In this document: piece after piece, positions 42,113-59,224 of the stretch
How positions within the stretch are numbered: the stretch's first letter is position 1
Layout of the letters: each line of letters starts with the position of its first letter
Source: Oscillatoria princeps RMCB-10
GTDB taxonomy: Bacteria > Cyanobacteriota > Cyanobacteriia > Cyanobacteriales > Oscillatoriaceae
NCBI GenBank assembly: GCA_019359235.1
Contig: JAHHHT010000015.1
Coordinates: 62,001 to 126,000 of the forward strand
Direction of reading: 5' to 3'
DNA: 64,000 bases
The notes under the pieces: model-generated
The model's database searches: none
The model's input: only the letters and a program-made list of their open reading frames with translations
What the model was told of the DNA's origin: nothing
Translations under genes and position numbers: made by a program

Positions 42113-42566
42113 GGCGGATAACCCTATAGCCTGATAGCTCCATGATACCGGCAGGAAATGCCGGCTCTCTTGTGCGGAGGATTGCGCACCATTCCCCAGC
42201 ACCCTTGTGCGGCGCACACTGCACTCCCCCGCCCGATCCTTCCAGAGCGCGAGCAGGTTTGCCGCTGTGGCGAGTGCGATCGGACGGGGGAAAGGTTGCC
42301 TTCCCCGCACCCTGACGGGTCAGGGGAGTGCTGGAAAGCTGTCACCGCAGACTTGCAGTCACCCGGATGCAAGATGTCAGTCTCCTCCTGACACCGGCAG
42401 CCGGTCAGGTATTGACATTTTTCCCATTTTGTACTTAGGATGCAAGCGCCGCCCCCGCCCGCTGCCGATAAATTGAGAATCCTTAACCAAACCATAAGTT
42501 TTTTAATAAACCATTTTAATGAAAGTCATGTAACAATGTGTGAAGTAACGTAAAAATGGGTTGCTC
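42113..42566. other. Upstream region of the flavodiiron genes
   Basis: About 450 bases between the divergent Uma2 and flv3 genes. Open frames here have no family character. The last 100 bases are AT-rich (AAGTTTTTTAATAAACCATT) and probably contain the flv promoter. Confidence 0.4.
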
Positions 42567-42575
42567 AAAAGGAGG
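42567..42575 (+). promoter_or_regulatory. Ribosome binding site of flv3
   Basis: AAAAGGAGG lies 6 bases before ATG 42582, which selects that start rather than the upstream TTG at 42561. Confidence 0.85.
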
Positions 42576-42581
42576 CCACTG

Positions 42582-44309
42582 ATGGTAGTGCTCGCAGACC
42601 GAACCCAACGCCGGCTGACGATAGAGACGGGCGAAATCGCAGCTGACACGACGGCGATTCGCTCCCTGGACTGGGATAGAGATCGCTTCGACATTGAATT
42701 TGGGCTGAAAAACGGCACCACTTACAATTCATTTGTGATTCGGGGTGAGAAGGTTGCCCTGGTGGACACATCCCACGGAAAGTTCCGCCAGCTGTATCTA
42801 GACACCCTCACCGGCCTCATCGACCCAGCCGAGATAGACTATCTGATAATCAGCCACACCGAGCCAGATCACAGCGGCTTGGTCAAAGATGTCCTCCAGC
42901 TGGCTCCCCAAGTTACCGTGGTGGGCGCAAAAGTGGCGATTCAGTTTTTAGAAAATTTGGTGCACCAGCCATTTAAGAAGCAGTTGGTGAAAAATGGCGA
43001 CAAGCTGGATTTGGGCAATGGCCACGTCCTGGAATTCGTGTCCGCCCCCAACCTGCACTGGCCAGATACAATCTTTACCTACGACGCCAAAACGCAGACT
43101 CTGTTCACCTGCGACGCCTTTGGCATGCACTTCTGCTCGGATAAAACCTACGACGAAGATTTAGCCGAGATTGAGGAGGACTACCAGTTCTATTACGAGT
43201 GCCTGATGGCTCCCAACGCCCGCTCGGTGATCAGCGCCATGAAGCGGATGGCGGAACTGGGAGAAATCAGCACCATCGCCACTGGCCACGGGCCCCTGCT
43301 GCGCCACAATGTGGTCGAGCTCACCGGGCGCTACAAAAAATGGAGCCAAGAGCAAGCCAAGGCAGGAACGACGGTTGCAGTGTTTTACTACTCCGATTAC
43401 GGCTGCAGCGATCGCCTCTCCCAAGCGCTCGCCCACGGCATCACAAAAACTGGTGTCGCCGTGGAAATGATGGATATCAAGACAGCTGAGCCGCAGGAAG
43501 TGCGGGAGCTGGTTGAGGGGGCTGCCGGCATTGTCATTGGTGCGCCGCCGGTGTCGGGTGCCGGTGCAGCGACAGCGGAAGCCGCCATCAGCACCATCTT
43601 GGTTGCAGCCAACAGCAAGCAAGCCGTCGGTTTGTTTGAATCTGGCGGCGGAGATGACTTATCGGTTTATCCCCTGCGCAACAAGTTCAAAGAGTTGGGG
43701 CTGAAAGAGGCATTTCCTGCTATTTTGATCAAGGAAACGCCTACGGAAGCAACTTACCAGCTTTGCGAAGAAGCCGGCACCGACTTGGGGCAATGGCTGA
43801 CGCGGGATAAAACCGTGAAGCAGATGAAATCACTCGATAACGAGCTGGATAAAGCTTTGGGCCGGCTCAGCGGGGGGCTTTATATCATCACCGCCAAGAA
43901 AGGCGAGATGAGCAGCGCCATGTTGGCGTCTTGGGTGGTTCAGGCGAGTTTCCAACCTTTGGGTGTGACGATCGCCGTTGCCAAAGATCGGGCGATTGAA
44001 GCGCTCATGCACGCTGGCGACAAGTTCGTGTTAAACGTACTCGCCGAAGATAACTATCAAGCTCTGATGAAGCACTTCTTGAAGCGCTTTGCGCCCGGTG
44101 CGGATCGTTTTGCCGGTGTGAAAACGCAACCGGCAAGCAATGGCTGCCCGATTCTGACGGATGCAGTGGCTTATCTGGAGTGCGAAGTAGCCAGCCGGAT
44201 GGAGCTTTCTGACCACCATATTGTTTACGCAGTTGTCGATTCTGGGCGCGTTAGCAATCCAGACGCACTGCCGGCAGTCCACCACCGCAAAGTTGGAAAC
44301 CACTACTAA
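42582..44309 (+). CDS. flv3: Flavodiiron protein Flv3
   Basis: A 575-residue class-C flavodiiron protein that, with Flv1, reduces oxygen to water at the acceptor side of photosystem I. Three domains: a metallo-beta-lactamase-like domain (about 30-255) with complete diiron ligands in SHTEPDHSGL (His92, Glu94, Asp96, His97), LHWPDT, CDAFGMHF and GHGPLLR; a flavodoxin domain (about 265-405); and a C-terminal flavin reductase-like domain (about 425-575). The full ligand set distinguishes it from Flv1/Flv2. Flv3 versus Flv4 is judged from sequence memory and from the flv1 neighbour. Confidence 0.87.
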   Translation: MVVLADRTQRRLTIETGEIAADTTAIRSLDWDRDRFDIEFGLKNGTTYNSFVIRGEKVALVDTSHGKFRQLYLDTLTGLIDPAEIDYLIISHTEPDHSGLVKDVLQLAPQVTVVGAKVAIQFLENLVHQPFKKQLVKNGDKLDLGNGHVLEFVSAPNLHWPDTIFTYDAKTQTLFTCDAFGMHFCSDKTYDEDLAEIEEDYQFYYECLMAPNARSVISAMKRMAELGEISTIATGHGPLLRHNVVELTGRYKKWSQEQAKAGTTVAVFYYSDYGCSDRLSQALAHGITKTGVAVEMMDIKTAEPQEVRELVEGAAGIVIGAPPVSGAGAATAEAAISTILVAANSKQAVGLFESGGGDDLSVYPLRNKFKELGLKEAFPAILIKETPTEATYQLCEEAGTDLGQWLTRDKTVKQMKSLDNELDKALGRLSGGLYIITAKKGEMSSAMLASWVVQASFQPLGVTIAVAKDRAIEALMHAGDKFVLNVLAEDNYQALMKHFLKRFAPGADRFAGVKTQPASNGCPILTDAVAYLECEVASRMELSDHHIVYAVVDSGRVSNPDALPAVHHRKVGNHY

Positions 44310-44686
44310 CCCCCGTAGGACAGGCATCTTGCCTGTCCTTGAGGGCAGGCGGGACGCCTGCCCTACGGGTGATGGCCCTGTGCGGCGTTGCAGATATTCG
44401 CGCATTGAGAAACCGGGTTTCTTTCCGTTTCCCGGTTTCTGGGGCTATCTTCACCCTACTGAAAACCGCTATATTTTTCTGGCACAGCCCTGACGGCTGC
44501 GCAGCAGAAAATGAATATAGCGCGTCAAGAACCTTCGTGTAAATTTCAGAACCCCGGTTTCGTAGGGGCGGGCCCCTGTGCCCGCCCTCTTCCGGGTTTC
44601 TGGGCCCCCCAGCCGCAAAAACATCGCCTCGCGACCGGCATTATTTTTGTATAATAAAAACACCAAGTTTTCCCCCCTCACTCCTC
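44310..44686. repeat. Repeat cluster between flv3 and flv1
   Basis: Contains GGACAGGCATCTTGCCTGTCC and GGGCAGGCGGGACGCCTGCCC (44317-44366), an AGAAACCGGGTTTCT element with a half-matching partner (44407-44440), and a GTAGGGGCGGGCCCC element bounded by AGAACCCC and CGGGTTTCTG (about 44540-44602). No gene. The two flv genes may still share a transcript. Confidence 0.75.
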
Positions 44687-46408
44687 ATGTCAGAAACCAA
44701 AAAACGAGACGTACAGGTTGTCACCCTTGCAGAAGATACCAAAGTGTTCCGCTCGCGCACTTGGGACCGGCTCAAATTTGAAGTAGAGTACAGCTTGCAG
44801 CGCGGGACTACGGCCAATTCCTTCCTCATCGAAGCAGGCAAAATCGCTCTGCTCGATCCGCCAGGTGAATCGTTCACACAGAATTATCTGGAATCCTTGC
44901 AGCAGCGCCTCGACTTGAGCAAGCTAGATTACGTCATTCTCGGACACTTCAACCCGAACCGGGGTGCCACCCTCAAAGCGCTCCTAGAATTGGCACCTCA
45001 GCTGACTTTTGTTTGCTCGAATCCCGCAGCAATAGCCCTGCGGCAGGTTTTTGAAACCGAGGAATTGAATATTGCTGTCGTGCGCGGGGAAGACACTCTC
45101 GATATCGGGAAAGGACATGCGCTGCAATTCATCACCACGCCGACTCCCCGATGGCCAGACGGTCTTTTAACTTACGATCCGAAAACTCAAATTCTGTTTA
45201 CCGATAAGTTTTACGGTGCCCATACCTGCGGCGACCAAGTATTCGATGAGGGGTGGTCAATCTACAGTGAAGACCGGCGCTTTTACTACGACTGCTTGCA
45301 CGCCGCACAAGCCAAGCAAGTCCTCTCTGCCCTTGACAAAATTGCTGACTTGCCGGTAAAATTTTACGCGCCAGGTCACGGCCCAATGGTACGCTACGGG
45401 CTGACAGAACTCACCCACCTGTACCGCAAGTGGAGTGAGGAGCAAAATTCCAAAGACTTGACAGTTGCCCTAATTTATGCTTCAGCCTATGGCAACACAG
45501 CGACACTCGCGCAGGCGCTCGCCAAGGGAATCACAAAAGCCGGTGCGGCGGTAGAATTGATTAACTGCGAAGCCGCCGAACCGGCAGAAATTCAAGCCGC
45601 CGTGGAAAAATGCGACGGGTTTATCATCGGTTCGCCCACCCTGGGAGGTCACGCGCCCACCCAAATTCAAACCGCCTTGGGGATTGTCCTCTCCACAGCT
45701 TCCAAAAACAAACTCGCCGGCGTCTTTGGTTCCTACGGCTGGAGTGGGGAAGCCGTTGATTTGATAGAAAGCAAATTACTCGACGCCGGCTATAAATTGG
45801 GCTTTGAATCCATCCGCGTCAAATTCAAACCCACCGATGTCGTTTTGCAACAGTGCAAAGAAATTGGGATTGATTTTGGCCAAGCTTTGAAAAAAGCCCA
45901 GAGACTTCGCGCCCCCCGGCAATCCGCAAGCGCGTCGCAAGCTGACCGCACCGCACAAGCTGTGGGGAGGATTGTTGGCTCTCTTTGCGTGATGTCAGCC
46001 CGCCGGGGAGATATCACCAGTGCGATGCTTGCTTCTTGGGTTTCTCAGGCGACATTTAATCCGCCGGGGGTGACAGTTGCGGTTGCCAAAGACCGCGCTC
46101 TTGAATCTATCACGCACACGGGAGACAAATTTGTTTTAAACATTTTAGCAGAGGGCAAACAGCTGCGCAAGCACTTTATGAAGAATTTTGCTCCGGGGGA
46201 AGACCGGTTTGCCGGTTTGGAAACCAAAGAAGCGCAGAACGGTTGCCCCATCCTCAGCGACGCTCTTGCCTATCTGGAATGCGCTGTGGAAAACCGCATG
46301 GACTGTGGCGATCACTGGGTGGTGTACGCCGTCGTTGAAAATGGCCATTTGCTGCAGGATGCCGGTGTCACAGCCGTGCACTATCGCAAAACCGGCAGCC
46401 ACTACTAA
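44687..46408 (+). CDS. flv1: Flavodiiron protein Flv1
   Basis: A 573-residue partner of Flv3 in photosynthetic oxygen photoreduction. The domain order is the same as in Flv3, but the diiron-site motif reads GHFNPNRGA (His87, Asn89, Asn91, Arg92 in place of His-Glu-Asp-His), and the later CDAFGMHF becomes TDKFYGAHT. Loss of metal ligands is the known mark of Flv1 and Flv2. The flavodoxin (about 265-400) and flavin reductase domains are intact, with CVMSARRGDITSAMLASW. Flv1 rather than Flv2 is favoured because no Sll0218-like gene lies between the pair. Confidence 0.87.
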   Translation: MSETKKRDVQVVTLAEDTKVFRSRTWDRLKFEVEYSLQRGTTANSFLIEAGKIALLDPPGESFTQNYLESLQQRLDLSKLDYVILGHFNPNRGATLKALLELAPQLTFVCSNPAAIALRQVFETEELNIAVVRGEDTLDIGKGHALQFITTPTPRWPDGLLTYDPKTQILFTDKFYGAHTCGDQVFDEGWSIYSEDRRFYYDCLHAAQAKQVLSALDKIADLPVKFYAPGHGPMVRYGLTELTHLYRKWSEEQNSKDLTVALIYASAYGNTATLAQALAKGITKAGAAVELINCEAAEPAEIQAAVEKCDGFIIGSPTLGGHAPTQIQTALGIVLSTASKNKLAGVFGSYGWSGEAVDLIESKLLDAGYKLGFESIRVKFKPTDVVLQQCKEIGIDFGQALKKAQRLRAPRQSASASQADRTAQAVGRIVGSLCVMSARRGDITSAMLASWVSQATFNPPGVTVAVAKDRALESITHTGDKFVLNILAEGKQLRKHFMKNFAPGEDRFAGLETKEAQNGCPILSDALAYLECAVENRMDCGDHWVVYAVVENGHLLQDAGVTAVHYRKTGSHY

Positions 46409-47959: not shown

Positions 47960-49480
47960 CTACTCAACTTTGATACTGTCCAACTCCCTTTTACTTTGTT
48001 TAGCCGCTTCTGGCGACATAGTTCCCTGCACTTTAATTGTGGCACTCACTTTCTGTCCAGTTGGCAGAAAAATACCAGTCACTTGCAAAATCCCATTCAC
48101 ATCATAGAACAGAGTAATTTCCACTCCCGATTCTGCTGGATAAGGCGGCAGGTTTTCCAAACGAGCTGTTCCCAAAAGTTCGCAATCTTCTGGATCTTTC
48201 GCATCGCCCTGAAGAATCTCGATATTCACGGCAGACTGATTATCTTTGACTGTTACATATGTATTTGAGGCTTTGCAGGGAATTTTACTATTTGCAGGGA
48301 TAATTACTGAGTTCTCAGGAACCCCGAAATCATTGAGGCTTACAACTCCTAAGCTGTGAGCGCAAACATCGGAGACTGTAGGCAGCACCGTACCGGCAGG
48401 CGCAGTTGCTTGACCGGCCTGAATTGCCAGAGTATTCGCTAGAATAGCCGCTCCCTGGGCGACAACTTCATCAGGGTTGACTGAGCGCAGGGGTTCCTTC
48501 CCAAATAAGCGAGACAGCATCTTACTAACTGCTGGAATTCTCGTCGAACCTCCCACCAGCAAAATATCATCGATGTCTTCGCGGTTCAAATTCTCCTTTT
48601 CCAGCGCCTTGCCCAGCTCAATTTCAATGTTCATTTCCGTGCGCACTATCAGGTCATCAATCAGTGCTTCAAACTTACTCCGCGTTACCTTAAACTGTGC
48701 TTGACGACCTTCTACATCAAGTGCGACTCGCGTGCTGTCAGAAGTAGACAGCTTTTTCTTAGTCGCCTCAGCCTCAGTGCGCAGTTTTTGCTGGCCGGCC
48801 AGAGAGCTTAGAGGGTCTAGCCCCGTAGCCTTTTTAAATTCCTCTTGAAAGTAAGCCATCAGGCAATCATCGATATCCTTGCCACCGAGTTCGTGGTCGC
48901 CGCCAGAGACAATCACATCTACATCCTTGCCGTTCACGCGCATGATTGTGATATCGAAAGTGCCGCCGCCGAGGTCATAAATCAGCATCGTTTTGTTGCG
49001 GACTTCCCGACTGGCAGAAAACTCCAAAGCCGCAGCGGTTGGTTCATTAATAATCCGCAATACGTTAAACCCGGCAATTTCCCCAGCCGTCTTAGTAGCC
49101 ATTCGCCTTTTATCATCAAAGTAGGCGGGGACGGTAATGACAGCATCCCGAACCGTCGTGTTGAGAAAGGATTCCGCATCCTGTTTGAGTTTTTTCAAAA
49201 TCTGCGCCGAGATTTCTTCCGGCGTCCAGTCCCGACCATTTTGGCGAATCCGGTAGTCACTACCCATTTTGCGTTTGATGAACTGCACCACGCGATCGCC
49301 TTCCGAGATCGCTACATTTTTAGCAAAAGTCCCGACGACGGTATCGCTGTCATCAAAAAACACAACTGATGGGGTAATCCGCTCGCCGTCGCAGTTGGGA
49401 ATAATTTCAGCTTTGCCATCCTTCATATAAGCCATAGCTGAATAGGTTGTTCCCAAATCAATGCCAATTACCAATCCCAT
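47960..49480 (-). CDS. Short Hsp70 (DnaK-like) without a lid
   Basis: A 506-residue Hsp70. The nucleotide-binding domain (residues 1-375) has GIDLGTTYSA, INEPTAAALEF, YDLGGGTFDIT and LVGGSTRIPAV. A beta-sandwich substrate domain (about 385-490) follows with LGVVSLNDFG and EILQGDAKDPEDCELLG. The roughly 100-residue helical lid of DnaK (about 630 residues) is absent, so substrate handling should differ from the housekeeping chaperone. It is the last of six minus-strand genes, 209 bases after the 643-residue helical protein, with a repeat copy between. Confidence 0.9.
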   Translation of the reverse strand: MGLVIGIDLGTTYSAMAYMKDGKAEIIPNCDGERITPSVVFFDDSDTVVGTFAKNVAISEGDRVVQFIKRKMGSDYRIRQNGRDWTPEEISAQILKKLKQDAESFLNTTVRDAVITVPAYFDDKRRMATKTAGEIAGFNVLRIINEPTAAALEFSASREVRNKTMLIYDLGGGTFDITIMRVNGKDVDVIVSGGDHELGGKDIDDCLMAYFQEEFKKATGLDPLSSLAGQQKLRTEAEATKKKLSTSDSTRVALDVEGRQAQFKVTRSKFEALIDDLIVRTEMNIEIELGKALEKENLNREDIDDILLVGGSTRIPAVSKMLSRLFGKEPLRSVNPDEVVAQGAAILANTLAIQAGQATAPAGTVLPTVSDVCAHSLGVVSLNDFGVPENSVIIPANSKIPCKASNTYVTVKDNQSAVNIEILQGDAKDPEDCELLGTARLENLPPYPAESGVEITLFYDVNGILQVTGIFLPTGQKVSATIKVQGTMSPEAAKQSKRELDSIKVE

Positions 49481-49526
49481 AAATTCTCCAAGTGTACAAT
49501 AAATTACTAGCCTTTACCTCGTTTCC

Positions 49527-49632
49527 AGGCTCTGACTTGAAAATAGTCTTGTAGGGGCGATGCCCCCGTGCTCGCCCCGCCCTGGGGACAATTTTCATTG
49601 GTGGCGGTGTGCGCAGTTCATCGTAACTGCCT
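49527..49632. repeat. 106-bp direct repeat, left copy
   Basis: Begins AGGCTCTGACTTGAAAATAG, contains GTAGGGGCGATGCCCCCGTG and ends CGTAACTGCCT. It matches 56621-56726 with 2 visible differences. Its internal GGGGCGA/TCGCCCC segments can pair. Confidence 0.92.
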
Positions 49633-49689
49633 GGAACTCTCTGGAGGCTTAGCCTCCTGCAACCCTCTCTCAAGTAAATCTGAAACAGC

Positions 49690-51621
49690 TTACCATATTT
49701 CTGGTTCGTCGGAAGTATCTTCAAACCCTAAAACAGCATCCAGGGCTTTAACAATCAAGTCATCTAGAGTTTTCAGGAAAAAGTTTTGTTCCAAGGAATC
49801 ACTCTTAAAAATCTCTAAAGCCCACTCTTTGAGCTTATCTAAGTAGGCAGTTCGCAGGCGCTGTTTAGCCTGAGTCATAGCGCGAGCGATATGACTTTGA
49901 AAATCATAATCCAGCTTATTGGCTAGGAATGGGTCGGATATAAGCTGCCTAACCTCACGGCTTTTTGTCCGAAAGGTTGCCTTGTAACCTTCCAGCAAAG
50001 GATTGAGAAGGTGTGAGGGGAGAGGGCATATACAAACCAGTTTCCTAATATATACTAGCTTGCCCTCTTGGACGACTTCTAAGAGGCCAGTAAGTTCGGG
50101 CCGGTCTGTCTGAGGGGTGGGAGAAAAGAACAAGAGAGCCGGTTTGTCAAATTGTTCCGCTTCGTCTAGCAGCACTTGAATAAAGCCTACCTTATTGCCA
50201 ATCCCCAACTCAGCAATTTTATCGGATAGTTTCCTAGAAAGGGTTTCTAAATCTAGAGTGGTGTTCACCTGGATGGGGTTTTGTATGGATTGGCCAAAGT
50301 CACTGATGCCAAGTAACATCCCATCCATAGCCAGTTGCTCTAGCCGGGCGTAATTAGTAGGGTCATCTACATATTTTTCCAGTTTACCAGCGAGCAGTCT
50401 GTACGAACTTCCCGCTCCGAAAAGCTCGGCGCTATTTAAATTCAACTGGTTGAGCAAGGGCTTAATCGGAGAATCCAGACTGCCTAGGGTTTCTTGCCTC
50501 AGCTGCAGATACTGGCGTTCCACCTCTGCTAGTTCCTGAATTTTCTGGAAATAGGACTGCTGGACAGACTCAATTTGTTGAAGAATCAGGGGGAAATCTC
50601 CAGATTGTCGGATAGAGTCTCCGATCTCTCTGAGAGCAACCTGCTGTTTTTCTTCGGCTACATCCTGAAAAAACTCAAACTGAATTTCCGCGCCCTGGTT
50701 CTTGATGGACTGACGGGCTTGCGTGTCAGCCCGCTCGACGGCTAGCATTTGCTCTAGCTCATTGAGAACAAACGCAAATTGATTGTCGAGATCGGGGCGG
50801 AGTAATTCGAGTTGTTGGGGGTGTGCGTCTTCGCTACTGATAAGCTGTTCTATAAATTGGGAGCGCAGGTTTTGGGATCTAAAGCTAAAGGTGCGCAACT
50901 CGTCGCAAATTGGATCGATTTGCTGGGCAATCAGGAGCCGGTATCCCAGAAAGAATTGTTCGTAATCGGATTGAGCGGAACGCTCTCTACTGATGAGTTG
51001 CTCGACTTGCGCTGAGAAATTTTGTTTTGTCCGAGTTAGGGTTTGCACTGTCTGCTGAGAGTAGTTGCCCACCTCATCTCTCAGCTTGGCAATTTCAGCG
51101 TAATACCTGGGAAACAGTTGCTGCGACTCGGCGGAGAGGTAGCGCAAGTTTTGGACTAACTTTTCTCGTGTCTTGCCAACGTTGAAAGCTTCATCGTAGC
51201 TTTTTTGAATCTCGGCAATCAGTAGCAAATCTCTGGCGAGAACCTCTACAGCATTGACGGTTCCCTCACACCGGCGCTTAAAACTGCTCTCGATCGCCTT
51301 GTAGAAATCTTGGCTGTCAATCAAGGTTGAAACGGCCTTAAAAAAGCTAGACCACTGGGGTTCGATTTCAGCTTTAATGTCCTCTTTGAGGGAGGCTTCG
51401 GGAAATGCCAAGGGTTTAAATGTCACCCGAAAACGGTTCTGAAAAGATTGCAGAGCTTTTTGGGCGTGTTCTGCCGGTGTGGGGAAGCCATAGTTGTTTA
51501 TGGTTTCTAGAGCCGGTTGGATATCTCGCATATAGACTTTGCCGGCAGACTTTTTGTAGCCGGGAAGCAGGGATGAGGATATCTGGTCGTAATACTTGTT
51601 GAACAGGGGTGAGAAGAACAT
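49690..51621 (-). CDS. Large helical protein of unknown function
   Basis: 643 residues, almost entirely helical and charged, with coiled-coil-prone stretches (about 165-235, 300-400, 590-625) and no signal peptide or clear membrane helix. It does not show GTPase motifs, although the general look recalls structural or dynamin-like helical proteins. The start has a good AAGGAGCG ribosome site. It sits between the putative nuclease and the Hsp70 in the same direction, so it may be a scaffold or a chaperone client. Family not recognised. Confidence 0.7.
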   Translation of the reverse strand: MFFSPLFNKYYDQISSSLLPGYKKSAGKVYMRDIQPALETINNYGFPTPAEHAQKALQSFQNRFRVTFKPLAFPEASLKEDIKAEIEPQWSSFFKAVSTLIDSQDFYKAIESSFKRRCEGTVNAVEVLARDLLLIAEIQKSYDEAFNVGKTREKLVQNLRYLSAESQQLFPRYYAEIAKLRDEVGNYSQQTVQTLTRTKQNFSAQVEQLISRERSAQSDYEQFFLGYRLLIAQQIDPICDELRTFSFRSQNLRSQFIEQLISSEDAHPQQLELLRPDLDNQFAFVLNELEQMLAVERADTQARQSIKNQGAEIQFEFFQDVAEEKQQVALREIGDSIRQSGDFPLILQQIESVQQSYFQKIQELAEVERQYLQLRQETLGSLDSPIKPLLNQLNLNSAELFGAGSSYRLLAGKLEKYVDDPTNYARLEQLAMDGMLLGISDFGQSIQNPIQVNTTLDLETLSRKLSDKIAELGIGNKVGFIQVLLDEAEQFDKPALLFFSPTPQTDRPELTGLLEVVQEGKLVYIRKLVCICPLPSHLLNPLLEGYKATFRTKSREVRQLISDPFLANKLDYDFQSHIARAMTQAKQRLRTAYLDKLKEWALEIFKSDSLEQNFFLKTLDDLIVKALDAVLGFEDTSDEPEIW

Positions 51622-51748
51622 GACGCTCCTTGCAGGAGTAGGTGTGAATGATTAAAACCCGATTGGGACGACCTTCTCTGGCTGGGTTGAACTAAAAAGA
51701 ACACGCTCCGACAGCATTAATAGTTTCCTGCTATAAGAAAATAGTATC

Positions 51749-52750
51749 CTAAAATTTCAGCCATTTGGAATAGCTCATTTTTTTTTGGGGCTTCTTAATT
51801 TTCTGAATCTTTTGCACTTGCCCTGTGCCTGTTATTAGCTTGTAAAAAATGTAATGAACTCTATCGTCCTGGACAGCCCTCAGTAAATCCAACCCCAACT
51901 GCTTTCGCGCCTCATATCTAAGCGTGTTCTTATACATTCTTGCGGCTTGGTTTTGGGGATAATCAGGACTTTTTTGCTTTTTTGTGAGCTCCGAGGAATC
52001 AGTTTTTGCTTCAAATACAAAGTAAACGGATTGACAGGGGTTTCCTTTTTTCCCATTCTCCGCATCTTCCCTACTAATTAACATGATTACTACATCGACT
52101 GCACATTTATCACCTCCCTCAAACGGTCTGTCGGCAAGAACATATTCTTGATTGGGGTTCTTTTCAAAATAATCTACCGCAGCTTTATAGGCTAGCTCTT
52201 CACTATTTATCTCCCTGTGGCGTTTCTCTCCATTCACTATCTCGTAAGAGTCGCTGAGCAAATCACAATCTGGATAGGTGAAAATATCACTCATAACGTA
52301 ACCAGCAATTGCTTCGCCCACAGTTCCTTTTGCACGATTGTTGCCACCAAGATTCTTGTAAACGTCCTGTTTGGGATCGAGGACAGTTTTAATGAGTATG
52401 TTATGAAAAAACCTCTCCAGCAAAGTTATCTGAGATAGCCAAAATTTTAGCTCGGCTTTTTTAGCATCAATCATTTTTTGCATCGCAATTATTTCGGATT
52501 TTTGGGCTAGGGATATCCGGCTCTTAATTTTGGTAATATCCCTTTGGCAGGAGTCGGCAGCTTCGTTAAACTCTGAAAGTTTTTGTTGCATCTCCTTCTT
52601 TACTTCACTCAGCATGTCTTTTAGCTGGGCGACTGAACCGTCCCGTTCGGTTTCAGGAGCCTTTGAAGAGAGGCTAATCTTTTCAAGCAACCACTCACCT
52701 TCTTCTACCAGCCTTTTGGTTTCATTTTCGATTTCAGATTTACTCTTCAT
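51749..52750 (-). CDS. Putative PD-(D/E)XK-type nuclease
   Basis: 333 residues. The N-terminal 120 are coiled-coil. From about 140, the order of motifs resembles the PD-(D/E)XK nuclease fold: GTVGEAIAGYVM (Glu146, first helix), CAVDVVIML (Asp219), YFVFEAKT (Glu247-x-Lys249) and NQAARMY (Gln268, helix after the core). Asp to ExK spacing is 28, long but compatible with a loop. Family assignment is inference, since I do not recognise the protein as a whole. If right, it would cut DNA with the neighbouring HerA-like motor. Confidence 0.5.
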   Translation of the reverse strand: MKSKSEIENETKRLVEEGEWLLEKISLSSKAPETERDGSVAQLKDMLSEVKKEMQQKLSEFNEAADSCQRDITKIKSRISLAQKSEIIAMQKMIDAKKAELKFWLSQITLLERFFHNILIKTVLDPKQDVYKNLGGNNRAKGTVGEAIAGYVMSDIFTYPDCDLLSDSYEIVNGEKRHREINSEELAYKAAVDYFEKNPNQEYVLADRPFEGGDKCAVDVVIMLISREDAENGKKGNPCQSVYFVFEAKTDSSELTKKQKSPDYPQNQAARMYKNTLRYEARKQLGLDLLRAVQDDRVHYIFYKLITGTGQVQKIQKIKKPQKKMSYSKWLKF

Positions 52751-52843
52751 AAAAATCTACCTGGAATTAATTAGTTGGCTTGTCGTCAATAAACGAGGCG
52801 CAGAAATCCGCTTCCTGCTCAGCGGCAATCTCCCCAGATGGAC

Positions 52844-52860
52844 AAGAAACCCAGTTTCTT
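52844..52860. repeat. Single AGAAACC palindrome variant
   Basis: AAGAAACCCAGTTTCTT, a one-base variant of the dispersed palindrome, in the 125-base gap between two operon genes. Confidence 0.7.
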
Positions 52861-52875
52861 GTCCACCCCTGTCCG

Positions 52876-53394
52876 CTAACTCCCGTATGAAGCGCGATTA
52901 GACTCTCTTTTACGCTGCTCTTCAGCTATCCGTTTTTGCATCTTTTCCACTGCGCTTTCTATGCCTTTTGCCTCAGTCTCAGAAAAAGCAATCTCCTCTT
53001 GCTTGGCTTTCTCGGCGTTAGCAATACCGGCATCACTCACCTTAGCTCGATCCGCTTTCTTTTTTGAGTCACTGAGTTGACCCATATCGGACCTATTAGC
53101 CTCAATTGAATTGTCCAGGCTTTCTTTCTCTTCGTCAAACTGCTCGTCGATTTCCTCAGCCTCTTCTACAACTTCCTCTTGAGTTTCGTCAATACTGTCC
53201 TGGAGAAATTCATTAGCCTGTTTCATTGCTTGTGTTGTTTCTATAAATGCCTCTCCCTCCAGGCTAGCCAGCATCTCCTTAGTTTTCGCAGCGAAATCAG
53301 CAACTTCGGCAGTTTTATCAATTGCCTCTCGGCTGTTTTCCTTAATCCCTTGTATTTCCTTGGAAGTCCCTTCCTTGGTTCTTTTATTAGCCAT
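52876..53394 (-). CDS. Small charged coiled-coil protein
   Basis: 172 residues, strongly Glu/Lys-rich, predicted to be a continuous coiled coil (for example QEEVVEEAEEIDEQFDEEKE and AEKAKQEEIAFSETEAKGIE). No hydrophobic core domain, signal or membrane segment. Its start lies 3 bases after the stop of the HerA-like gene, so the two are almost certainly co-translated and may bind each other. No known family. Confidence 0.75.
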   Translation of the reverse strand: MANKRTKEGTSKEIQGIKENSREAIDKTAEVADFAAKTKEMLASLEGEAFIETTQAMKQANEFLQDSIDETQEEVVEEAEEIDEQFDEEKESLDNSIEANRSDMGQLSDSKKKADRAKVSDAGIANAEKAKQEEIAFSETEAKGIESAVEKMQKRIAEEQRKRESNRASYGS

Positions 53395-53397
53395 AGT

Positions 53398-56300
53398 TTA
53401 CCTCTTGCTGTTTAGTTGAGTGCTGTTTAGTTGAGCTATGAGATTTTTGGCTGTCAGCTGCACTTGTTCGCGCATGGCAACCACTTGCTTCTGGATAGTG
53501 GCTGCTAGACTGTCATCTGGATCGGTTTCTACAGCTTCTAACTCCTCACTTAGATTATAGAAACTGTCTGTCGTCTCTGCAATCTCATTAAAGTAAGCTT
53601 CTATAACTGACCCTTTGGCAGTTCCTTGCTGGAAGACTTGCGCGAGTCTCTCAGCTTGCTGCGAGTGAGATTTAAAACAAGCTTCCACTTTCGCGAAGGC
53701 TTGTGTTAGGACTTGGGCCTTTTCTAGTTCTAGCTCGTTAATTTTTCTCAAACAGGCAGCTTTAATTTGCTGCAATTCCTCCTGAGCTTTTTTGAGCTGG
53801 TTTTGGCCATTCTGGATAGCCGGCTCAGATTGAATCGCATCGCAAACTCCTTCTTGCCGCGTCTCCCTCCAGATGCACTCAAGCTCAGTCCAGGTCGATT
53901 CAATTCTCTTCTCTAAGAGGGGAACGAATTCCCTCAACTGCTTCGTGAATAACTCTAGGTGTTTTAAGTCGGGTTTAAGGGAGCGCGACATCTCCAACAG
54001 TTGATGGCCATTGGTTAACTTCGGCAAGCACTGTTTATACAGAGATTCTAACTGATTCTGTACCTCCCCCACAGACTTGCTCACCTTCTGCCGGTGCAGG
54101 GATTCTTTAGCGGCGAGCGCCACCCGATAAAACCCCTTCTCCATTATACACTCTACCAACTCCCGATCGGAAGGAGGTTCCTCAATCCCATAAATCAGCT
54201 TAGTATTCGGCTCCTGAATCCGCACCGGCTTATATGTCCCCTCCATAAACAAATAAGCGTCCCCCGGATTGGCTCGCGCCAGTTCCTCTGATTGAACTCC
54301 CGTCAGCAGCATCGACTGTTGCAGCATTTCCCGGTCATCCCCCGATACAGTTCGGTGCGCCAGTTTCACATTAGTATTTTTAATCACCTCTGGCGCAACA
54401 GCACTCGGCAACTGGTCAGCAATAATCATACCCTCTCCTAAGGCTCGCATCTCAGCCAGCATTCGCACGATATACTTAGCAGCTTCCGCCTTCGGATTCG
54501 ACGATCCCTCCTCACCACCCCCCTTGGCATCTGTCCCCACAATATTGTGCGCCTCTTCAATCACCACGATATGCTTCAGTGGACTGCCAGACTTTCGCGT
54601 AACCCGCGTATATTGCCGCAGCGTTGCCAGGACGAACATTGTCATCAGATTGGCTTGCTCCTCATTCAAGGAGTCCATTTCCAGAATAACTGGACGTTCC
54701 ATCAGCGTCTCAATATCTGGAACAGACGTTCTCGTATTGAGCATACTGCCGGCGCTGCGCCGGAGCAACCCCCCTATCCTGACTTCTAAAGCAGTTTTGA
54801 GGTCGCTCTTGATATCCGCCGAATACTGTTTAGCCTCCAAAATCGCAGTTATCGCCTCATAGAGGTCTTGCATATTAGGAAACTCCCGCTTCTGGCGGAT
54901 ACCGCACTCCGCCGTATCCTGGGGCTGCCACCCAAATATAGCATAAACCCGCTCAATCGCTTCTGCTAATAGTGCCGGCATGGGCCCGTACAGCGGGAGC
55001 GCTCCCTTAAAACACGCCTCTAAAGTTGAGATGTGTTCATCCAGCGTGGTGCTGCCATAAAAGGCAAAAGGATTGAACCGAAACGGACAAACTCTCTCAT
55101 TTCCCAGACTGTAGATTTGCAAATCCGCCTGCAGCTTGGCAATCGCCCCCGCCACATCGCGAGCCTCTATGTAAGCCTGAGTCGTCGGGTTCTTGTCGAG
55201 CCTTAACGCCCCCTCATCATACTTACACTTTAGCATAGATCGGTACTCAGTCTTTGCCGGCTCTATCACCAAAAAAGGAATCCCGTGCTCAGTCCACAGT
55301 TGAAACAAAAGATTCAGCACGGCGGTTGTCTTCCCCGAACCGGGAACCCCGCAAATAAAAACGTGCTTTTTCAGACTCTCCCGCGAAACCAGCGCCTGAT
55401 TCTTGGGCTTACCGGCTTGCCATCCCAGCAAAACCGACTCCCTGGAATTCTCCGATTTCAGATCCGTTTCCTTGCGAATGCCGCTAAACACCACCACCGG
55501 GTCGGGTATCACCGCCTTAAAACAGGATCTGACTTCCTCAACCGTGAAGAGCCGGTGCAGCCGTTTCAATTTTAGCATCTTACTGCTGTCTGGAAGCGCC
55601 CCCCAATATTCAGCCCAGATAGCTTCAGGAAATAGGACTCCCTGCTGGACTGCTTGCAGAGCGCCGGCAAATCGGGGGTCATTTTGACCGATGCCAATTT
55701 CCCGGTAGAGCGGCTGCTCGCTAGATTCCACCCAAAACTCATTCAGCAGCAAACTGGCATTAAAGCGGTTCTCTGCTAAAACCCTCAATGAAACTTCATA
55801 CAAGGGCCGATTTTGAGTGGCCTCTCGCAAGTCCTCAAATAGGTCAAGCGTTCTTTCAGCCACGGGGTCTGTGCGGTACTCCTTAATTTTACTCGAAAAT
55901 GGCGATCTCTCCACCTCCCCATAAGAATAAGACGTAACAGAATCCAAAACTCGGAGCAGATTTTCCAGCGCCTTTTGCTCCGTATCGGTCAGAGCCGTTG
56001 GCTGGATCGCTATCTCGATTAAAGCCCGGTTGCCATAAGCCTCTAGCTTAGAGCAAAAACCGACTAGCGCGTTCTCCTCATTCGGCTCCACCGGCTGGAT
56101 TAAATAGTAATGAGAGGGACTGACAGACTTACCCTCTTTGTTTATCCGAGGCGGTGTCGTCGGTTCAACCCTCTCCTCTTGCTTGAGGCCAAAGCTAATA
56201 AATCTGACCCAGCTTAAGTCTATCACACTCCCGCCAGTGACTTCCTCAATCTCGTAAAAATCTTTCCAAAAAGAGCTTTGGAAAATTTTGCGCATCTCCT

Positions 56301-56562
56301 CTGGGCCACATTCCCGCGTCGCCTCAAAATTGAGGCGGACAAAGATTTGCAGCTTGCGATCCTGATTTGGCTCGCCCGGGTTGTAGGCGTACACCAAACT
56401 GCACGTCAGGGGAGCGCACTGATGGGCGAGCGCCTGCAGCGCGTGCAGGAAATTTGTCTGCATCTCAGACAGGCGAGATGCGGGGTCATCCCCGTACCGA
56501 GCCCGGTATTCAGTTTTTTCCAAATCGGGCAGGTGCGTAACCCGATAAACTAAACTTGACAT
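53398..56562 (-). CDS. HerA/DUF87-type ATPase with N- and C-terminal extensions
   Basis: A 1054-residue protein with a FtsK/HerA-superfamily ATPase core. Walker A is GVPGSGKTT (Lys411) and Walker B HIVVIEEAHNI (Glu669-Glu670). Further core landmarks are FLVIEPAKTEYR after Walker A and MIIADQLPSAV then KLAHRTVSGDDREML, the sensor/arginine-finger region. Residues 1-380 are a large unrecognised domain; residues about 830-1054 are coiled-coil. Such hexameric motors pump DNA and pair with nucleases (NurA-like or others) in repair and phage defence. The gene begins 201 bases after the J-like gene, across a repeat copy. Confidence 0.88.
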   Translation of the reverse strand: MSSLVYRVTHLPDLEKTEYRARYGDDPASRLSEMQTNFLHALQALAHQCAPLTCSLVYAYNPGEPNQDRKLQIFVRLNFEATRECGPEEMRKIFQSSFWKDFYEIEEVTGGSVIDLSWVRFISFGLKQEERVEPTTPPRINKEGKSVSPSHYYLIQPVEPNEENALVGFCSKLEAYGNRALIEIAIQPTALTDTEQKALENLLRVLDSVTSYSYGEVERSPFSSKIKEYRTDPVAERTLDLFEDLREATQNRPLYEVSLRVLAENRFNASLLLNEFWVESSEQPLYREIGIGQNDPRFAGALQAVQQGVLFPEAIWAEYWGALPDSSKMLKLKRLHRLFTVEEVRSCFKAVIPDPVVVFSGIRKETDLKSENSRESVLLGWQAGKPKNQALVSRESLKKHVFICGVPGSGKTTAVLNLLFQLWTEHGIPFLVIEPAKTEYRSMLKCKYDEGALRLDKNPTTQAYIEARDVAGAIAKLQADLQIYSLGNERVCPFRFNPFAFYGSTTLDEHISTLEACFKGALPLYGPMPALLAEAIERVYAIFGWQPQDTAECGIRQKREFPNMQDLYEAITAILEAKQYSADIKSDLKTALEVRIGGLLRRSAGSMLNTRTSVPDIETLMERPVILEMDSLNEEQANLMTMFVLATLRQYTRVTRKSGSPLKHIVVIEEAHNIVGTDAKGGGEEGSSNPKAEAAKYIVRMLAEMRALGEGMIIADQLPSAVAPEVIKNTNVKLAHRTVSGDDREMLQQSMLLTGVQSEELARANPGDAYLFMEGTYKPVRIQEPNTKLIYGIEEPPSDRELVECIMEKGFYRVALAAKESLHRQKVSKSVGEVQNQLESLYKQCLPKLTNGHQLLEMSRSLKPDLKHLELFTKQLREFVPLLEKRIESTWTELECIWRETRQEGVCDAIQSEPAIQNGQNQLKKAQEELQQIKAACLRKINELELEKAQVLTQAFAKVEACFKSHSQQAERLAQVFQQGTAKGSVIEAYFNEIAETTDSFYNLSEELEAVETDPDDSLAATIQKQVVAMREQVQLTAKNLIAQLNSTQLNSKR

Positions 56563-56587
56563 GGTTTTATCTCAGATATATTTCCTC

Positions 56588-56620
56588 GTTCCCAGGCTCA
56601 GCCTGGGAACGACCCTCTGG
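56588..56620. repeat. Hairpin repeat next to the 106-bp repeat
   Basis: GTTCCCAGGCTCAGCCTGGGAAC is a 10-bp stem with a 3-base loop, followed by ACCCTCTGG. It is the same family as 14311-14333. Confidence 0.8.
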
Positions 56621-56726
56621 AGGCTCTGACTTGAAAATAGTCTTGTAGGGGCGATGCCCCCGTGCTCGCCCCGCCCTGGCGACAATTTTCATTGGTGGCG
56701 GTGTGCGCAGTTCATCGTGACTGCCT
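56621..56726. repeat. 106-bp direct repeat, right copy
   Basis: Second copy of 49527-49632, between the HerA-type and J-like/TPR/RDD genes. Same orientation, 2 visible mismatches. Related degenerate sequence is also seen at about 58448-58652. Confidence 0.92.
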
Positions 56727-56763
56727 CCTTTCAAGGCAAAAGCAGCATTGTTAGCCTAACAGC

Positions 56764-58143
56764 TTAGTACCAGTTATACTTGCCCAATTTCATAAAGTCC
56801 CCCTTGGCACAGCAGGCCACAGTAGTCCCTGTGAACCTGTCATGCAAACAGGGGTATAAAAAGAACCCAAGCATTCTTATAAACCAATTGGGTACATCTC
56901 TTGATGATAGTAAAATAAAGAACCATGCGCTTCCAGCTATCCCCAAAGCCAGAGGCTTGAGTATAGCTCTGAAAATCAATTGAGTTAGGCTTGGCGGAGA
57001 ATTTTCTTCTTGGTTAACAATTTGCATCCCTACCAATCGCTTGGACAAGTCCTGTCCTTTATTTTTATAAGGAAGCCATATCCAGGCATAGCATAAAATA
57101 CCCAAGGTAACTATCCCCCCCAAAACAAATCCGCCACTACTACCAGTAGCTACAACAATTGCTCCCCCTGGGAACAGCAATAACTCATCCATCATAAGAC
57201 CTAGAAACCTTTGGAAAAAGTTAACCCCTAGCGCTCGCCGAACCCCAATAGAGTTAGAGTCTAGCAAACTCAGCAGTTCTGGATCGTCCCCGGCCAGCTT
57301 CTGAGCCTCTTCAAAACGCTTCTTCAGTTGCTTGAGGAACTTGCGGCCTTCTTTCACCTGTCCGCTATCAAACAACTGGCCAATTTTCGGCAAAGCTTCC
57401 ACAGCTGAGTTATTATAAACTGCGGCTAGCCCATAGCGGGCGGATTGATTCGATGGTTCTTTGCTCAAAACCCCCTGGAGAACCTTCTCCGCATCATCCC
57501 ACTTTTCGTGTCTTATATAGATGCCGGCTAGTGCGATTTGGTAGTCGGAGTTATTCGGTTCGAGCTGAATGGCCCTGTTGATTTGCCGGTGAGCGTCATT
57601 CCACTGCTCCGCTGCGGCATAGTACCCGCTGGCTTCTACATAATACTGGGCATTTCGGGGGTCGCAGCTAATGGCCTTCTCGGCTGCGTAAATAGCACTC
57701 TGCAAGTCGCGCCACAGATGGCTGGCAACCCCATAAACTTGCCAAGCGCCAGCGTCGTTTGGACTGGCATCCGTTAACGTCTTGCCGGCTTCGATCGCCT
57801 CCACATAGCGACCTTCCTCAATCAGCCGCCAAATTTCCTTGATAGTAGGTATCGCCGGCGGTGGCGGCGTCGGAGCTGTCCGCTTCCACTCAGCCAAATC
57901 ACGGTCGTACTTGGCCCGCGCCTCAGGGTCAGTCAGTTTCTTTCGAGCGTCAGGAATCCACTCCTTGAGTACCTTATTAACCAACGCAAGCTTCTCTCCT
58001 CTAGCCGCATTGACTTTGGATTGTGTTTCTCTATACTGACTGAGAAGCTCTTTGCGGATCTTGTCGCAATCCCAATCTGGTTGAAGATTGAGACGCTGAT
58101 AGTAGTCAGGGAAATCAGGGGCGATCACACTGCTGTTGGCCAT
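56764..58143 (-). CDS. J-like, TPR and RDD membrane protein
   Basis: 459 residues. Residues 12-85 resemble a J domain (DYYQRLNLQPDWDCDKIRKE, then LTDPEARAKYDRDL), but the His-Pro-Asp tripeptide between helices II and III is absent. Residues about 100-250 are three to four TPR-type helix pairs. Residues about 305-450 are an RDD membrane domain (FFQRFLGLMMDELL and GQDLSKRLVGMQIVN) with several hydrophobic helices. It anchors the system at the membrane and may recruit the lid-less Hsp70; lacking HPD, it is unlikely to stimulate ATPase activity in the standard way. First gene of the six-gene run. Confidence 0.8.
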   Translation of the reverse strand: MANSSVIAPDFPDYYQRLNLQPDWDCDKIRKELLSQYRETQSKVNAARGEKLALVNKVLKEWIPDARKKLTDPEARAKYDRDLAEWKRTAPTPPPPAIPTIKEIWRLIEEGRYVEAIEAGKTLTDASPNDAGAWQVYGVASHLWRDLQSAIYAAEKAISCDPRNAQYYVEASGYYAAAEQWNDAHRQINRAIQLEPNNSDYQIALAGIYIRHEKWDDAEKVLQGVLSKEPSNQSARYGLAAVYNNSAVEALPKIGQLFDSGQVKEGRKFLKQLKKRFEEAQKLAGDDPELLSLLDSNSIGVRRALGVNFFQRFLGLMMDELLLFPGGAIVVATGSSGGFVLGGIVTLGILCYAWIWLPYKNKGQDLSKRLVGMQIVNQEENSPPSLTQLIFRAILKPLALGIAGSAWFFILLSSRDVPNWFIRMLGFFLYPCLHDRFTGTTVACCAKGDFMKLGKYNWY

Positions 58144-59224
58144 CTTGACTTTCCTTGCATCCCGAAGCGATTAATAAGTTCATTTACTAAAGTATCAAAT
58201 TTTATATAAAAAAAAAATTATTTAATAAATATTTAAACATTTGCGGCGCTCCGTCAAGTGGGCCATCGGCTTAAGGCGAGACAGACCTCTCCCCCCTTTC
58301 TCCGGCTCCCATTTCCGACATCTTTCTTAACAGTTTCAACCCCTTGCGGGAACCCAGTTTCAATCCTTTGCTTAACATTTCTTCAGATAAAAGTTGAAAA
58401 TGGCTCCCAGTTATTGAGAATGAAGAATTGCAATTGCCAGGTAGCTGTAGGGGCGGCCCCCCGTGGCCGCCCGCCCCCCGTGGCCGCCCCCCGTGGCCGC
58501 CCGCCCCCCGTGGCCGCCCCCCGTGGCCGCCCCCCGTGGCCGCCCGCCCCCCGTGGCCGCCCCTCCCCCCAAGCCGCCCCGCCCCAAGGCCAAGTTTTCA
58601 TTGCTGGCCGTGCCCGCAACTCGGAAGCGACTGACTGGAAAATAGTGCTGTAGTGCTTGCGGCACCGTGCCCCGCAGGGGCGGCCCACCGTGGCACTGGT
58701 GTCAACTTAAAGCTACTAGGCGGTTAAAACATGTAGGGGCGGGTTCACCCACAACCTGTGCTACCTAGCTAAAACGCAAATAAACCCGCCCAAAACCTCT
58801 GATATCTGTTTTCACAGTTGAGGATTGGGGCGAAGGTACGTTCATATCCTTCCCTAGGTGGGGGCGGGTTGATAAAAATTCTCGGCTTGACCGATAGGTT
58901 AGCGGGTGAACCCGCCCCTACTGTCCTTGATATACAAAGTGCTTTGTAGGGGCGGCCCCCCGTGGCCGCCCCTCCCCCCAAGCCGCCCCGCCCAGGAGAC
59001 AAGCTTTTAATCTGCATTCCCCTTCACAGGAGGCAGATCCTCCATAACGCCCTTAACAGTATCTTCCAGGGGACGAGGGAATAGAGATAAATATGGCAAA
59101 TTAAATGCGCAACAGCTTATAGCAGTAGCCACTTAGATTAGGACACAAAGGACAGGCGAGACGCCTGTCCTACGCCTTTTATCCCAGGCCCACTGATGTC
59201 CTAAGCAATATGACTGCTGCTATA
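58144..59224. other. 1-kb repeat-rich region without genes
   Basis: AT-rich DNA at 58195-58245 probably serves the J-like gene as promoter. It is followed by the GGCCGCCCC array (58449-58566), GTAGGGGCGGGTTCACCC elements (58734-58790 and again near 58863-58920 in the other orientation), a short GGCCGCC copy near 58946-58990, and GGACAGGCGAGACGCCTGTC at 59150-59175. Frames over the arrays are low-complexity shadows. Confidence 0.6.
58449..58566. repeat. GC-rich tandem array CCCCCGTGGCCGCC
   Basis: Seven or so copies of a 14-18-base unit CCCCCGTGGCCGCC(CGCC). The flanks (AAGTTTTCATTGCTGG, GACTGGAAAATAGT) echo the 106-bp repeats at 49527 and 56621, so this looks like a further copy with an expanded core. 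Confidence 0.8.

Follow-up and report, generated by a model that had tools for sequence, protein, structure and literature searches.

In this study we describe P0001, a protein of Oscillatoria princeps RMCB-10 that very probably acts as a nuclease on DNA or RNA, judging from the active-site signature in its sequence, and that is probably the nuclease effector of a pump-associated polymorphic-toxin cassette resembling type VII secretion systems, a reading built on analogy with the cassette around its sole complete homolog. The gene lies at 52750→51749 on the minus strand of the window, by which we mean the whole stretch of 64,000 nucleotides that was analysed. It forms an open reading frame of 333 codons (333 aa), and stops interrupt reading of the plus strand over 51749-52750. 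The protein combines a helical N-terminus (residues 1-123) with a PD-(D/E)XK-like C-terminal domain (residues ~135-305). An earlier note had placed a PD-(D/E)XK signature in this domain, behind a coiled-coil N-terminus, and its residue numbering is exact. The motif is real and consists of Glu146 (codon 52313..52315, in AKGTVGE-AIAG), Asp219 (52094..52096, in AVDVVIMLISR), Glu247-Ala-Lys249 (52004..52012, in YFVFEAKTD) and Gln268 (51947..51949), the last of which begins the helix following the ExK strand; all codons are on the minus strand. The residues E, D and (D/E)xK thus stand in the order that characterises the superfamily, and both their order and their spacing agree with the PD-(D/E)XK core. 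Among 1,073 neighbouring ORFs, a pattern derived from the motif matched only P0001 and its L145 homolog, and it matched 1 of 20,000 shuffles; this rarity is no more than indicative, because the pattern was written with P0001 already in view.

Relatives of P0001 are rare. Our search of 391 genomes of the order returned one complete homolog (genome G489, locus L145, E=5e-35) and a decayed fragment (G501, locus L146), which makes the distribution patchy and accessory, with 2 of ~390 genomes of the order positive besides its own. The complete homolog (8449-9378 of L145, minus strand) aligns with P0001 over its full length, through the N-terminus, at 34% identity overall (E=2e-41); within the C-terminal domain the two share 42% identity across 164 aa (E=3e-42). 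All five motif residues, E146, D219, E247, K249 and Q268, are identical in it, within the stretches AKGALGE, SLDAVNMLISR and YFVFESKTD. The conservation that the earlier note had asked homologs to show is therefore present in the one complete homolog, and calling the residues invariant has a thin basis of two sequences. The decayed copy of the domain (L146:1217-1489) lies beside a transposase-like ORF and keeps YFVFE-x-K as YFVFETKTD. No homologs were found in 59 near relatives, including genomes of the same genus and the same family, nor in plasmids, phages and viral contigs, and 386 cyanobacterial genomes from across the phylum gave chance coiled-coil matches and nothing else. A phmmer search for relatives in 80 HerA-neighbour loci from genome contigs found none. 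No match came from a scan of genome contigs with an alignment of P0001 and scrambled copies of it, in which therefore only the motif stretches act as patterns.

The most informative comparison is with the gene neighbourhood of the homolog. In L145 five genes follow each other on one strand. The first encodes a HEAT-like protein of 508 aa whose C-terminal segment is strongly hydrophobic, and the second is an ORF of 61 aa that also contains a hydrophobic segment. An ATPase of 676 aa (FtsK_SpoIIIE 5e-13) comes third, ahead of a hairpin protein of 72 aa that has W-G at its end, and the nuclease-like protein is last. The profile of P0001 and its homolog matches further proteins in other genomes via the N-terminus alone, and the ATPase profile yields four more cassette loci; in total the cassette was found in 13 genomes of 8 families, several of the genomes being closely related. 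In every fetched locus, as far as the contigs reach, the layout begins with a membrane-anchored HEAT-like protein and an ATPase, followed by the 72-aa hairpin and then by another hairpin protein whose C-terminal part is longer and varies from locus to locus; in most of them a small membrane ORF lies between the HEAT-like protein and the ATPase. We found no description of the cassette in the literature, in a search that covered few subscription journals.

The variable part of the last protein is exchanged between loci. The clearest case is the pair L145 and L167, whose 72-aa hairpins are 83% identical and whose pumps are 72% identical over the part present; the first 101 residues of their effectors are 54% identical and the C-terminal parts are unrelated, an argument that rests on mechanically called ORFs. 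In L165 and L167 the end is a MafB19-type deaminase (4e-9), with an Imm1 immunity gene (1e-13) immediately after it, and in L163/L164 a MafI-family immunity gene (4e-11) comes after an end without family assignment. The ends in L161, L162, L166 and L180 hold a GIY-YIG-like domain (9e-4, slightly under the cut-off), those in L168, L181, L182 and L183 are REase-like, by eye only, with D...(D/E)xK-type motifs, and the end in L145 is the P0001-type domain. Comparison of the REase-like ends by hhalign was null, each profile consisting of one or two sequences. Recognised immunity proteins thus accompany two end types among the sister loci; among the genes neighbouring P0001 and its L145 homolog we recognised none. 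Behind the effectors of L181 (8413-10342) and L182 (8918-9927) we also observed arrays of small ORFs that resemble further toxin/immunity pairs, two of which are common to both loci. Exchangeable toxin domains together with Imm1 and MafI are the signature of a polymorphic-toxin cassette and not of a repair pair. A conserved N-terminal module with exchangeable C-terminal ends is present in the L145-type cassette, and the window shares this property only through the L145 homolog, because the N-terminus of P0001 has no significant match. Its membership in the hairpin module is unproven, since its match to the module profile (E ~0.05) hardly rises above coiled-coil noise.

In the window P0001 also stands behind a pump. 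P0002 (53398..56562, minus strand, 1054 aa) is a HerA-like ATPase in which an N-terminal domain common to FtsK-type pumps is followed by a DUF87/HerA motor (GVPGSGKT, IEEAH; DUF87 E=1e-6, 29.5 bits vs the curated cut-off of 23.2). The N-terminus of P0002 matches the profile of the FtsK-type pump N-terminal domain at E=4.5e-15, and the same domain occurs (7e-51) in cyanobacterial HerA-type ATPases of an intermediate clade, whose loci contain a HEAT-like protein as well (1e-24). Because of these two matches we regard FtsK-type and HerA-type pumps as variants that have an N-terminal domain in common; the P0001-type nuclease domain stands behind both. Relatives of P0002 occur in many phyla (Phycisphaerae, Clostridia, Balneolaceae and others). 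Most of the full-length ones are adjoined by an ORF of ~125-190 aa that is mostly coiled-coil or helical, as P0002 is by P0003 (52876..53394, minus strand), an acidic, helical protein of 172 aa that begins 3 bp after the ATPase gene and is a candidate adaptor. Upstream of the HerA-like ATPase, L070, L074 and L090 encode a ~1,180-aa protein that contains an FtsK/EssC-like domain (up to E=2e-22), hence both pump types can share one locus. In L062, L064, L065 and L068, from Clostridia and relatives, the ATPase is followed by a ~160-aa coiled-coil protein and then by an ORF that has a metallopeptidase motif of the HE(Y/F/L)GH type and occupies the place that P0001 has in the window. Elsewhere (L059, L060, L063, L088) the HerA-like ATPase and the coiled-coil gene lie beside Ser/Thr kinase, zinc-ribbon, response-regulator or WD40-type proteins, and control by phosphorylation is possible in these loci.

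Type VII systems of Bacillota and Actinomycetota export toxins and are built from an EssC/EccC ATPase, WXG100 hairpins and LXG toxins. The cassettes resemble them in several ways: the FtsK-superfamily ATPase of L145 scores as EssC (6.5e-12) and EccC (1e-9), both far below the equivalog cut-offs, small helical hairpin and immunity genes are present, and the toxins join a hairpin-like N-terminus to an exchangeable C-terminal enzyme. However, the cassettes are cyanobacterial, have one motor domain, and encode separate HEAT-like and small membrane proteins. Their hairpins end in W-G and lack W-x-G at the hinge, and the match of the 72-aa hairpin to TIGR03930 is no better than E=0.057 and stands beside matches to many coiled-coil models, so that the hairpin does not qualify as a WXG100 protein. 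In addition, the motor in the window is HerA-type. Tentatively, and with less assurance than we attach to the effector role of P0001, the loci might together represent an undescribed cyanobacterial family of pump-toxin cassettes akin to type VII. Such a cassette would have a single motor domain, a HEAT-like membrane subunit as a separate protein and helical hairpins in pairs, and both its motor (FtsK or HerA) and its toxin end would be exchangeable; the window would then hold the HerA version, with a nuclease toxin and an Hsp70 of its own.

By analogy with the L145 cassette, an FtsK/HerA-superfamily ATPase would engage a helical-hairpin partner and the helical N-terminus of the effector, which in P0001 would be the helical adaptor region ahead of the PD-(D/E)XK-like domain, and would then move or unfold the effector. 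In the target the C-terminal domain would cut nucleic acid, using K249 and a metal that E146, D219 and E247 bind. On the same analogy P0001 may be transported out of the cell, and the HerA-type locus of the window may work like the FtsK-type loci. Against the effector reading stand the motor of the window, which is HerA-type rather than FtsK-type, and the cyanobacterial outer membrane, for which the model does not account. The near-noise match of the P0001 N-terminus to the hairpin module, the failure to recognise an immunity gene next to P0001 or L145, the single complete homolog and the negative structure and profile searches for the fold count against it as well.

The genomic setting of P0001 bears on both the effector reading and its main rival. 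From 47960 to 58143 the window contains a block of six minus-strand genes, which starts at its upstream end with a membrane protein that combines TPR and RDD and whose N-terminus is weakly J-like (56764..58143), continues with the HerA-like ATPase, P0003, P0001 and the largely helical P0004 (49690..51621, 643 aa), and closes with a short, divergent Hsp70 (47960..49480, 506 aa; Pfam HSP70 4e-134). The GC content of the block is 0.43-0.52, lowest over P0001, vs 0.53-0.61 in the flanks, and we found no counterpart of the block in the nearest genomes; both were counted for the effector-cassette reading. The TPR-RDD protein has no match in G002 and G003 at E<=1e-20, and the Hsp70 is only 38-45% identical to the Hsp70s of these two genomes. 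P0004 was assigned to no family in profile searches and has no match in G002 or G489; a role as immunity protein or as HEAT counterpart has no support. An Hsp70-like ORF lies 3-41 bp upstream of a HerA-like ATPase in five other loci (L055, L120, L122, L124, L127). The link between Hsp70 and HerA is thus recurrent, and because of it the Hsp70 of the window may be part of the system. Outside the block we noted GC-rich short tandem repeats at 58380-58690, where either strand can be read as low-complexity ORFs, and two adjacent long ORFs at 42561-46408 that by eye resemble flavodiiron proteins.

The main rival to the effector reading, though in our judgement an unlikely one, is intracellular defence: the HerA-like motor would track invading DNA, P0001 would cut it, Hsp70 and the TPR protein would regulate the process, and nothing would be exported. 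Defence pairs of HerA and a nuclease are known, the motor of the window is HerA-type, and P0002 matches mad8/HerA, the Mad8 of the MADS defence system, at 4e-17 (PADLOC). A self-sparing restriction nuclease would also require no immunity gene, in keeping with the neighbourhoods of P0001 and its homolog, where none was recognised, and a low-GC accessory block, the signalling neighbours of related loci and the recurrent Hsp70 would suit a regulated defence system as well. However, bona fide toxin/immunity pairs occupy the same position in cassettes of the homolog's type, and the pump of the homolog's cassette scores as EssC/EccC. PADLOC detected no other Mad component in five neighbours and has no model matching P0001, P0003 or P0004, and P0002 differs from the motors of MADS and of HerA-NurA by the extra N-terminal domain that it has in common with the toxin-cassette pumps. 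These observations favour the effector reading.

In the effector and the defence reading alike, the C-terminal domain of P0001 would be a nuclease, with a putative PD-(D/E)XK fold. The fold itself is unproven. Two poor single-sequence AlphaFold models of low confidence (mean pLDDT 43 and 39; homologs not used) predict long helices for residues 4-123, a helix at 144-155 that holds E146, strands at 203-211, 217-226 (with D219) and 242-249 (with ExK), and a helix at 268-294 that begins with Q268 and is followed by a strand, so that the secondary-structure order fits. Foldseek with the first model, in contrast, returned no match, no family was found for the domain in Pfam, NCBIfam, PHROGs, PADLOC or the PDB, and P0001 showed no significant similarity to a known PD-(D/E)XK member, by hhalign or otherwise. 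The nearest family is DUF6602 (PF20247), whose match at E=0.14 to residues 218-253 is not evidence alone; it spans D219 to ExK. With the L145 homolog or by profile comparison no DUF6602 match appeared, and as a home for the domain this family is unsupported, the match falling far short of the cut-off. The Tox-REase-7 motif consists of GxxxE, IxD, ExK and Q (PMC3482391), and P0001 has the same order and spacing (G142xxxE146, xxD219, E247xK249, Q268). It differs by lacking I two residues before D, and no known Tox-REase-7 immunity protein adjoins it. Assignment to Tox-REase-7 is unsupported, there being no Pfam Tox-REase match; a genome search for Tox-REase-7 found nothing, a silence that says little without a positive control. 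Lack of a profile or fold match and the low AlphaFold confidence would suit a domain that is not a nuclease, or a degenerate PD-(D/E)XK fold, in which the motif is coincidental. We consider this improbable, as it is opposed by the five residues kept at 42% domain identity, by the correct secondary-structure order, by the rarity of the motif pattern in controls and by the fact that even the weak DUF6602 alignment lands on the D...ExK stretch.

The earlier note was right to place the nuclease-like gene next to the HerA-like motor, and the L145 homolog likewise has an FtsK/HerA-type pump ATPase immediately before it. Signature, conservation and pump adjacency from its interpretation hold; its comparison with HerA-NurA is not supported, as neither NurA nor any other nuclease family is matched and the sister loci hold toxin domains with Imm1 and MafI. 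A HerA-NurA-like pair that processes DNA ends in repair would account for a HerA-superfamily motor adjoining a nuclease signature, but ranks last among the functional readings and is highly improbable, given the missing NurA match, the patchy accessory distribution and the deaminase, GIY-YIG-like and immunity-linked ends that fill the gene position in sister loci.

If the effector reading is true, the range of type VII-like, pump-driven polymorphic toxins extends to cyanobacteria, and a HerA-type motor stands where an FtsK-type motor would be expected. To our knowledge no type VII export route has been described for the two-membrane cyanobacterial envelope. The loci would offer a set that can be tested: the genes are small, the toxin ends can be recognised, two types come with immunity partners, and the predicted active site of the nuclease end is an obvious target for mutation. 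What looked like a HerA-nuclease pair for repair or defence would thus be re-read as a probable effector cassette, which calls for caution when HerA neighbourhoods are annotated.
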